NCBI RefSeq assembly: GCF_016758255.1
Contig: NZ_QYAD01000003.1
Location: forward strand, 372,001 to 436,000
From: Leucobacter chromiireducens subsp. chromiireducens
GTDB taxonomy: Bacteria; Actinomycetota; Actinomycetes; Actinomycetales; Microbacteriaceae
Direction of reading: 5' to 3'
Length of the DNA: 64,000 bases
Shown here: piece after piece, positions 29,066 to 60,716 of the stretch
How the letters are laid out: the number at the start of each line of letters is the position of its first letter
Position numbering within the stretch: position 1 is the first letter of the stretch
Position numbers and translations under genes: made by a program
The notes under the pieces: model-generated
Told to the model about the DNA's origin: nothing
The model's input: only the letters and a program-made list of their open reading frames with translations
The model's database searches: none

Positions 29066-29095
29066 GAGGGCGGGGACTGGTTAGTCCTCGCCCTC
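29066..29095. terminator. Bidirectional terminator-like hairpin
   Basis: GAGGGCGGGGACT at 29066-29078 pairs with AGTCCTCGCCCTC at 29083-29095 (one mismatch, four-base loop). It lies between the converging MmpL and mgtC genes and overlaps the mgtC stop. Confidence 0.6.
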
Positions 29096-29785
29096 CAGCT
29101 CGTGCGCGCGCCAGCGCACCGAGGTCACCTCGGGCACGGGCACGATGTCTGCGATCGCTGCTTCGAACGCCGCGTCGCTCCGGTCGAGCGCCGTCAACCG
29201 CGCGGTGAGCTCGACCTCCCCCGTGCTGAGGTCGCTCGCTTCGAGTGAGTGCATAGTGAACTCCGGGCGCTGCAGTGCGGTCACCACCTTTGAGCGGATG
29301 GGCACCTCGGCGTCTGAGGCCGAGCGCACCACAAACACGTACTCGGTCGTCACCGCCTCGCGGCCACCCTCACGGTTGCGGCGGTCGAGCAGCCGGCCCA
29401 CCGGGCGGAGCACGACGTTTGACACCATCACCGCTGCGGCACCGCCCACCGCAACGAGAATGAGCCCGCCGCCAGCGAGCGCCCCCACCGCGGCCGATGC
29501 CCAGAGCGTCGCGGCGGTATTGAGTCCGGTGACGGACACGCCCTGCTTCATGATCACGCCGGCACCGAGGAAGCCGATGCCCGACACGATCTGCGCGGCA
29601 ACACGGGTGGGGTCGGCCCCGTCGAAGCTGAAGGCGCCCATGATCACAAACAGTGCGGAGCCGAGACTCACGAGGGCGTTGGTGCGCACGCCCGCGGTGC
29701 GCGAACGGAGCTGGCGTTCGAATCCAATCGCGGCGCCGAGGGCGAGGCCGGAAAAAATACGCAGGGCAAGGTCGAGTGTCTCCAT
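29081..29785 (-). CDS. mgtC: MgtC/SapB family protein
   Basis: A 234-residue protein: four or five N-terminal helices (1-130) with the MgtC signatures GAAIGFERQLRSRTAGVRTNALV and GIGFLGAGVIMKQG, then a cytoplasmic ACT-like domain (about 145-230). In Salmonella and Mycobacterium MgtC aids growth at low magnesium and survival in host cells, partly by restraining the F-type ATPase; it is not itself a proven magnesium channel. ATG 29785 has AGAGG upstream. The 400-base leader carries an M-box riboswitch and a possible leader peptide, so expression should rise when magnesium is low. Confidence 0.92.
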   Translation of the reverse strand: METLDLALRIFSGLALGAAIGFERQLRSRTAGVRTNALVSLGSALFVIMGAFSFDGADPTRVAAQIVSGIGFLGAGVIMKQGVSVTGLNTAATLWASAAVGALAGGGLILVAVGGAAAVMVSNVVLRPVGRLLDRRNREGGREAVTTEYVFVVRSASDAEVPIRSKVVTALQRPEFTMHSLEASDLSTGEVELTARLTALDRSDAAFEAAIADIVPVPEVTSVRWRAHELEGED

Positions 29786-29839
29786 GGGAACCTCTTTTCA
29801 AGGGTGCAGAACTAGAGCCGATGTGTTCGGCTGGGTCGC

Positions 29840-29865
29840 TCGCTCAGCCCCTCTTCGGGGAGCGA
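29840..29865 (-). promoter_or_regulatory. Stem-loop over the end of the leader peptide
   Basis: TCGCT and CCCC on one side pair with GGGG and AGCGA on the other around a five-base loop, with a CAG bulge. It covers the last codons and the stop of the leader frame at 29844-29912, so ribosomes translating that frame would melt it. There is no T-run. Confidence 0.5.
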
Positions 29866-29912
29866 TGCGTGTCACGGTGCGATCGCGGAGATCGCGGATG
29901 GTCGTCGTTCAC
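29844..29912 (-). CDS. Putative 22-residue leader peptide upstream of mgtC
   Basis: A GTG at 29912 is preceded by a very strong ribosome site (GGAGGAGGTGAGGC). It opens a 22-codon frame beginning MNDDHPRSPRSHRD and ending SPKRG. It lies after the M-box and about 60 bases before the mgtC start. The early acidic residues and prolines (P6, P9) recall the leader peptides of enterobacterial mgtA and mgtC, where proline and acidic stretches make translation sensitive to magnesium or charged tRNA. That link is an inference; the frame and ribosome site are seen directly. Confidence 0.5.
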   Translation of the reverse strand: MNDDHPRSPRSHRDTHRSPKRG

Positions 29913-29956
29913 GCCTCACCTCCTCCACGGAGCAGCGCTCGACAGGCCGAGCAGGT

Positions 29957-29974
29957 CGAAACCCAACGGTTTCG
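29957..29974 (-). promoter_or_regulatory. Small hairpin downstream of the M-box
   Basis: CGAAACC, a four-base loop and GGTTTCG form a seven-pair stem starting nine bases after the riboswitch core. It may be part of the expression platform, though no T-run follows. Confidence 0.45.
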
Positions 29975-29982
29975 TGACACAC

Positions 29983-30137
29983 CTCCACGTCAGAGCTTTG
30001 GCACTGTGCGACGTATCCGATGCCGGAATCCGCTTGGGATCACCCCTTAATCCGGGGAGACCTGTCCTCAGCCTGGGCGTCTCTCGACGTCGTGGGATGA
30101 GCGGACTGTGTTCGCGCAGGAGCCTCGCCGAACGAAG
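29983..30137 (-). promoter_or_regulatory. M-box (ykoK) magnesium riboswitch
   Basis: The minus-strand leader of mgtC contains the conserved M-box blocks in order: GGCGAGGCTCCT near the 5' end, GACGTCGAGAGACGCC in the middle, AAGGGGTGAT, and ACAGTGCCAAAGCTCTGACG at the 3' end. Closing helix P1 can form between CTTCGT and ACG...GAG. M-boxes bind magnesium and lower expression of magnesium-homeostasis genes when it is plentiful, fitting the mgtC downstream. Confidence 0.88.
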
Positions 30138-30151
30138 CGCTACAAGGACGT

Positions 30152-30157
30152 ATCCTA
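30152..30157 (-). promoter_or_regulatory. -10 box of the mgtC transcript
   Basis: TAGGAT on the minus strand, about 15 bases before the first conserved riboswitch base, which would start the RNA at the riboswitch 5' end. No good -35 box is visible at 17 bases. Confidence 0.45.
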
Positions 30158-60410: not shown

Positions 60411-60522
60411 CGCCTCGCGGTGACGCCCGCGCAGATATTCCCGAAAACACCCGGTTCCGCCACCGGCGGACAGGCGGACCCCGCACTGGTCACGCACCAC
60501 GCAACGGGGTACGATGAGTCCC

Positions 60523-60657
60523 GTGTTCCGGGGTCGGTGTGATTCCGAACCGGCGGTGACAGTCCGCGAGCTCCACTCCGTGGGGTTGACTTGGTGAAAT
60601 TCCGAGACCGACGGTGATGGACGGGGGTTCCCGTTCGAGTCCGGATGAGAGGAACGC
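60523..60657 (+). promoter_or_regulatory. FMN riboswitch (RFN element)
   Basis: The RFN blocks appear in order: GGTCGGTGTGATTCCGAACCGGCGGTGACAGTCCGCGAG in pieces (GAACCGGCGGTGACAGTCC is clear), GGTGAAATTCCGAGACCGACGGT in the middle and GTCCGGATGAGAGGAACGC at the 3' end. P1 forms from GTGTTCC and GGAACGC. It lies 59 bases before ribD, so FMN would lower expression of the ribD-ribE-ribBA-ribH operon, probably at translation since no terminator is obvious. Confidence 0.95.
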
Positions 60658-60716
60658 GCAGTCGCGGCGACCCCGCGACCCCGCGCGCACCCGGTACGCA
60701 GGAAGTAGCGGACGGG

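Follow-up and report, generated by a model that had tools for sequence, protein, structure and literature searches.

The mgtC gene in the window, the whole 64-kb stretch of Leucobacter DNA analyzed here, is preceded by an M-box magnesium riboswitch and by a 22-codon GTG frame with a strong ribosome site, and all three leader elements are real. On its sequence, this frame belongs to a recurrent leader ORF of M-boxes. Such ORFs are found behind M-boxes across genera, are conserved in frame over about their first ten codons, and occur independently of the gene that follows. The leader in the window is read here, with slightly better than even confidence, as an M-box leader with a cis-acting ORF of the uORF2 (Rv1805A) kind that is gated by the M-box.

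The M-box leader of mgtC in the window

All the leader elements lie on the minus strand. The aptamer (RF00380, 30143..29976) was detected by cmscan over the full-length model (1–169) with 134 bits and an E-value of 5.8e-30, far above the gathering score of 44, so that the riboswitch is as clear as the preliminary description had called it. A Shine-Dalgarno (SD) sequence, GGAGGTG, is located at the 3′ end of the aptamer (29986-29980), the place of the mycobacterial “SD1” according to PMC12810186, and is one mark of a uORF2-type leader. The other marks, a second strong SD (SD2) and a short ORF 3′ of the aptamer, are also present. SD2, GGAGGAGGTG (29917..29926), lies 4 nt 5′ of the GTG, which is at +63 from the M-box end. 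This 10-mer occurs only once in the 64-kb window with both strands counted. The leader ORF (29844..29912) starts with GTG, consists of 22 codons, MNDDHPRSPRSHRDTHRSPKRG, with Asp at codons 3 and 4 and Pro at codons 6 and 9, and ends with TGA. The mgtC gene (29081..29785) starts at 29785, 58 nt past the stop of the leader ORF, behind a probable SD, AAGAGG (29791..29796). It encodes a 234-aa protein of the MgtC/SapB family (PF02308, 120 bits; PF21770, 53 bits), whose nine closest named relatives are from Leucobacter with 74–92% identity. No MgtC relatives were found in viral contigs. Elsewhere in the window, an FMN riboswitch is located on the plus strand at 60520-60660 (82 bits).

Across nine aligned Leucobacter leaders including that of the window, GAGGAGGTG is invariant. 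A Leucobacter profile was made from codons 2–8 of six other Leucobacter leaders, with the window, the SD and the start codon excluded. The window frame ranks first of 250 with this profile in its own leader, and no other of the 127,958 positions in the whole window reaches its score.

Recurrence of the leader ORF behind M-boxes

M-box matches were obtained in 15 of 100 genomes of relatives, 19 of 398 of the family, 26 of 394 of the class, 14 of 347 of the order and 22 of 296 of the phylum, in sets that overlap. Two further family searches, with M-boxes in 3 of 11 and 5 of 21 genomes, stand outside the leader counts. The first five genome sets gave 120 oriented M-box loci, not counting four repeats (L121–L124); the M-box of one of the 120, L040, falls below the cut-off with 30.7 bits. 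Short frames were called by an SD match, a start codon limited to ATG, GTG, TTG, CTG or ATT, and a length of 6–110 codons. The caller found such a frame in 82 of the 120 M-box leaders, compared with 2/120 on the reverse strand, 6/100 in upstream flanks, and a mean of 5.95/120 (range 1–10) in 20 shuffles. The starts of L010 and L012 were then shifted by hand to a GTG 4 nt upstream, and L035 and L103 were added by eye; the AGT-containing frame (see below) was known beforehand for L035, L010, and L012. L023, whose frame is the main gene of a second M-box class, and L070, without a start codon, were dropped. After these hand edits, the set consists of 82 uORF2 loci from 27 genera and nine families. 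Conservation in related mgtC leaders had been put forward as one check on the small frame, and the frame is indeed kept in relatives.

The start codons of uORF2 vary among all five allowed by the caller. In two paralogous Mycobacterium-like leaders (L083 and L089) the start is apparently ATT, and TTG or CTG is used elsewhere. In L070, a recognizable start is gone, as if some copies were decaying. Genus names beyond those of the named MgtC relatives are inferred, and g121 is labeled Mycobacterium-like because of its PPE, Rv1535-family and Pro7 features. Pro7 is present in 26 of 31 Mycobacterium-like frames, matching PMC12810186; the start in the window, MNDDHPRS, has Pro6 rather than Pro7.

A mycobacterial profile, built from 26 Mycobacterium-like frames, places the called start first in 19 of 51 other leaders, for a chance expectation of 0.2, and among the top five in 25, the called start being outside the top five in the other 26. 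Of the ten Leucobacter frames, four (L007, L009, L010, and L012) rank first with this profile, five others do not, and the window frame ranks only 33 of 250. Because the mycobacterial profile does not cover leaders such as those of families f76 and f98, their membership rests on position, SD and composition.

Genes downstream of uORF2

uORF2 goes with the M-box, independently of the downstream gene. Of the downstream proteins that were scanned, Pfam assigns those encoded after uORF2 to P-type cation ATPases (Leucobacter L001, L007, and L010, as well as L041 and L102), Nramp (L035 and L103), MgtE (L119, L091, and L066), ABC permeases (L028 and L093), PPE (L081), and MgtC (the window and L063). 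The protein in L055 is without a family and that after the L045 uORF2 belongs to the Rv1535 family. The order M-box, uORF2 and mgtC is found directly in eight Nocardia records and in Gordonia effusa. A search for RNA families in 39 of 70 mgtC loci, which covered no more than 3 kb upstream of mgtC, gave an M-box in 11 and uORF2 in 10 of those. A leader peptide specific to mgtC is thus rejected since unrelated genes lie downstream of uORF2, and the ORF is linked to the M-box instead. That M-boxes precede several transporter classes, Nramp included, was already known (PMC4072509).

In Leucobacter relatives, contig positions place mgtC behind an ATPase gene, for example on the contig of 4378 bases in L001/L132. 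No close copy of the Leucobacter ATPase was found in the genome of the window, where the best match to a 412-aa N-terminal query has 32% identity, and therefore uORF2 now directly precedes mgtC. In nine of ten Leucobacter leaders, uORF2 starts between +59 and +65, counted from the end of the M-box; the exception is L002, with a start at +114. In Leucobacter sp. PH1c (L003/L125), the uORF2 segment is missing and mgtC starts at +64, the usual Leucobacter uORF2 offset. A second Leucobacter M-box class (L022 1727-2053; L013, L014, L016–L021, and L023) is without uORF2 and directly precedes a small protein, which in L022 is 109 aa long, with starts such as MPAAIIEPILFWQV; the ORFs of these ten loci are at +47 to +60. 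The L022 protein, the only one scanned, falls in no Pfam family, and its NCBIfam match is below threshold.

RNA structure and proposed gating by the M-box

In Mycobacterium tuberculosis, the M-box leaders of pe20 and rv1535 carry uORF2, Rv1805A (D’Halluin et al., 2026, PMC12810186). In the description given there of the pe20 leader, SD1 stands where the aptamer ends, an anti-SD, SD2 and a conserved uORF2 are further elements, and mgtC belongs to the operon. uORF2 is translated, and the M-box is reported to combine a translational platform with Rho-dependent termination. The same authors mapped the main termination site to a position upstream of uORF2, so that termination may not need uORF2 translation (PMC12810186). 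The leader of the window shares with these leaders the SD at the M-box 3′ end, the second strong SD, the short ORF and mgtC in the same operon, and the frames collected here are likewise conserved at the N-terminus. Furthermore, the mapped termination sites of M. tuberculosis are described without a canonical intrinsic terminator, and none was found in the window between 29700 and 30260. In contrast, ykoK/mgtE of Bacillus subtilis, which has the same aptamer family, uses an intrinsic terminator (PMC12810186). The window differs from M. tuberculosis in that mgtC is the first gene, PE/PPE genes are absent, and the start of the ORF is more acidic (MNDDHPRS); in Leucobacter, an anti-SD switch is not evident.

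By analogy with the mycobacterial work, we infer translational gating and Rho dependence of the Leucobacter leader. At low Mg2+, the closing helix of the aptamer would open, the strong SD2 would be freed, and ribosomes would translate uORF2; this translation would protect the transcript from being cut off by Rho and RNA structure, and mgtC would be made. At high Mg2+, SD2 would be shut, uORF2 would stay untranslated, and transcription would end early. The working part of uORF2 would be its early codons, not its tail. As the main termination site in M. tuberculosis lies upstream of uORF2, confidence in this gating was reduced from fairly good to just above even. The low rank of the window frame with the mycobacterial profile and its CCG in place of AGT at codon 6 (see below) were also counted against the gating model.

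An anti-SD switch in Leucobacter is not supported: a consensus fold of nine sequences has almost no covariation (−0.03 kcal/mol), and in single-sequence folds the partners of SD2 differ among species. Seven Mycobacterium-like leaders were folded with a closed closing helix; strong pairing of SD2 with a pyrimidine stretch on its upstream side is seen in L045, L047, and L076, while this pairing is weaker in others and absent in L074. uORF1 was rejected as a conserved coupled ORF; as a raw count, a frame from near SD1 ends between −60 and +30 of the uORF2 start, at varied places, in 49 of 82 loci.

The stem-loop noted earlier at the end of the frame is predicted in the minimum free energy structure (about 29869-29837, minus strand) and overlaps the stop, but it is weak in the window, with a z of −1.69 and 12 of 200 shuffles equal or better. 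As the key element it was set aside, which is not a claim of refutation. In the 83-nt stretch that surrounds the uORF2 stop, the mean z against shuffles is −1.16 in 81 loci (24 of them below −2; L057 was excluded because of Ns), −2.00 in ten Leucobacter leaders and −1.5 in the window. In 60-nt windows from 0 to +40 of the stop, the mean z is −0.7 to −0.9 (61 of the 82 loci, at most ten per genus). Despite this group-level structure above shuffles, no common hairpin was identified at the uORF2 stops. The start region of uORF2 folds no more strongly than shuffles (mean z 0.10). A second hairpin, AGCCGA/UCGGCU, is predicted between the leader ORF and mgtC (29816..29832, minus strand) and is not followed by a T run. 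A hairpin predicted in the Mycobacterium-like L076 has the uORF2 stop at its 5′ arm and the ribosome site and start of the next gene under its 3′ arm, which suggests translational coupling from uORF2 to that gene.

Each of three loci from family f76 has an intrinsic terminator between the M-box and uORF2. uORF2 is therefore not the sole output of the M-box there, and from this position it would act after the M-box’s own decision, truly in series.

Early codons of uORF2 and a possible second sensor

The constrained part of uORF2 appears to be mainly the first ten or so codons, where this is measurable. In three Mycobacterium-like groups, pN/pS over codons 2–10 is 0.34, 0.15, and 0.42, compared with 1.06, 0.64, and 0.90 over whole frames; the values elsewhere are less telling (Nocardia, 0.79; f35, 0.63; f36, 0.34). 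Whole-frame dN/dS was rejected as coding evidence, as it is near 1 in several groups and other frames are sometimes lower; one Mycobacterium-like group, for example, has 0.54 in frame +1 and 0.90 in the uORF2 frame. The C-terminal parts differ in length and sequence. Low pN/pS in the early codons together with a free tail is as expected for a cis leader.

Composition and codon 6 were counted in 89 frames, with seven from Nocardia and Gordonia added and Nocardia L151 and L161 left out. At codons 2–7, Ser amounts to 33% versus 5.6% in nearby genes, Asp, Glu and Pro together to 37% versus 17%, and LIVMFWY to 1.9% versus 32%. Two or more Asp, Glu or Pro residues within codons 2–9 are found in 75 of the 89 frames and 44 of 89 genes, and acidic residues in the same codons show a modest excess (72/89 versus 58/89). 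The acidic and proline-rich start in the preliminary description is thus real, but only moderate in degree.

The Ser codon AGT occurs within codons 4–10 in frame at 68 of 82 loci, in frame +1 at none, and in frame +2 at two. Its first in-frame position ranges from codon 4 to codon 10, shifting by whole codons, and such shifts argue for a codon-level constraint. A rejected candidate is AGTC as a piece of a fixed RNA helix: among the 27 of 82 loci that were folded, no single recurring partner was seen. Codon 6 is AGT in 60 of the 89 frames; when Ser is encoded there (66 cases), the codons are AGT (60), AGC (1), TCT (4), and TCC (1), whereas in downstream genes 4.3% of the Ser codons (82/1922) are AGT. 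Codon rarity was counted in 84 frames, with five f76/f4 frames left out. At codon 6, 71 of these 84 frames and 1 of 71 genes carry a codon from the ten rarest, and most members have a rare codon in codons 5–9 in 23 of 25 genera. Where AGT is absent at its anchor place (13 cases), the replacement still belongs to the ten rarest (AGA, AAA, TGT, or TCT) in eight and does not in the other five (GAA twice, CCG, AGC, and CAC). The anchor was chosen partly by AGT itself, with L146 lacking one, and the codon-6 and rarity counts are independent of that choice. What appears to be preserved early in the ORF, at an almost constant position, is a codon and not the residue alone, which is unusual. In the window frame, codon 6 is the common CCG, not AGT, and among the early codons only TCT, at codon 8, is very rare. 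Very rare codons are found at codons 2, 6, 8, and 10 (40, 71, 40, and 33 of the 84 frames), with 4 to 9 at each of codons 3, 4, 5, 7, and 9; this pattern may reflect shared ancestry in mycobacteria.

Leader ORFs that work through early elongation are familiar from enterobacteria. Intrinsic ribosome destabilization was reportedly first described by Chadani in 2017. MgtL in the mgtA leader of Escherichia coli and Salmonella has an EPDP motif and involves ribosome drop-off (PMC11282234). The window likewise has a leader RNA and a short ORF with acidic residues and prolines 5′ of a magnesium-linked gene, and in three Leucobacter leaders tested (L001, L007, and L010) the next gene encodes a P-type cation ATPase. 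However, the M-box is a different RNA, the two adjacent Asp residues of MNDDHPRSP lack an EPDP-like alternation, and the likeness is one of features. In Salmonella, mgtQ consists of eight codons in the mgtC-mgtB intergenic region and has a translation-inhibitory stem-loop (PMC8092293). It is similarly tiny, has early acidic codons (Asp2 and Glu5), and controls a magnesium transporter gene; unlike the window ORF it sits between genes, and the passages of PMC8092293 mention no riboswitch aptamer before it.

Two magnesium sensors in series, as in the parallel originally drawn, would be an alternative to gating by the M-box, although a doubtful one. After the M-box, a nascent-chain sensor would respond by a pause at a five-residue chain and drop-off at low Mg2+, the Asp/Pro/Ser-rich start and a slow codon near 6 acting as in E. 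coli MgtL or Salmonella MgtQ and altering the RNA downstream. The composition of codons 2–7, rich in Asp, Glu and Pro and poor in LIVMFWY, is consistent with this, but acidic residues are modestly enriched and many mycobacterial frames have one Asp in codons 2–9. The rarity of codon 6, extending to eight of the 13 AGT replacements and, within codons 5–9, to 23 of 25 genera, also points to a slow codon, but A/T-ending codons near the start can also keep RNA open, the start region folds no more than shuffles do, and codon 6 in the window frame is common. Starts resembling EPDP are found in f76/f98, MESDPGSR (L107), MDSEPGSM (L103), and MPEDGERPSR (L118), and, read by eye, MDPVPQPKAG (L196); the position of the f76 uORF2 after an intrinsic terminator also fits. 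Extended to the phylum, the reading would be a ribosome-based second magnesium sensor behind the M-box, built from a polar chain and a selected slow codon near 6, in which low Mg2+ stalls or drops ribosomes before completion and which serves any transporter, convergent with MgtL and of independent origin. In this general form it is considered rather unlikely.

Other readings of the ORF

The product of uORF2 might instead be a small protein acting in trans, for example on a transporter, as suggested for Rv1805A, whose homologue Rv0115A in M. tuberculosis is free of an M-box (PMC12810186). This is improbable: the C-terminal parts are variable, codons 2–7 encode almost no hydrophobic residues, unrelated transporters accompany the ORF, and biofilm tests in Mycobacterium smegmatis, as described in PMC12810186, gave no visible role. 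Furthermore, a strict start-region pattern, narrower than the family such that the window and several relatives are unmatched, gave four matches in 54 Leucobacter genomes, all of which are M-box leaders. That the frame arose by chance from a purine-rich stretch in a GC-rich leader is hardly credible: the window frame is divergent, without AGT at codon 6 and at rank 33 with the mycobacterial profile, and its stem-loop is within the shuffle range, but chance is already contradicted by the first rank with the leave-out profile, the unique SD, and the 82 of 120 leaders versus about 6 of 120 in shuffles.

Implications for actinobacterial M-boxes

In the literature searched, judged by titles and abstract starts, an M-box uORF is the topic of PMC12810186 only; “M-box” and “uORF” both occur in PMC4974804. 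The leader ORF behind an M-box in an actinobacterium is real, and the arrangement itself was already known in mycobacteria (PMC12810186). The uORF2 peptide is called mycobacteria-specific in that source, with its role left open, whereas the present data place it in other families too. In its titles, abstract starts and passages, this literature gave no mention of the early rare codon, of the independence of uORF2 from the downstream gene, or of a spread across the phylum.

uORF2 is found behind M-boxes in nine sampled families, before unrelated transporters. Relatives of uORF2 recur behind the M-box in many other actinobacteria and probably help to switch magnesium genes on and off. The question thereby moves from the effect of a small protein on PE/PPE to the effect of translating ten codons on the RNA. 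If early elongation is the sensor, uORF2 would be an actinobacterial counterpart of the enterobacterial MgtL device, independent of it and stacked on a true riboswitch.
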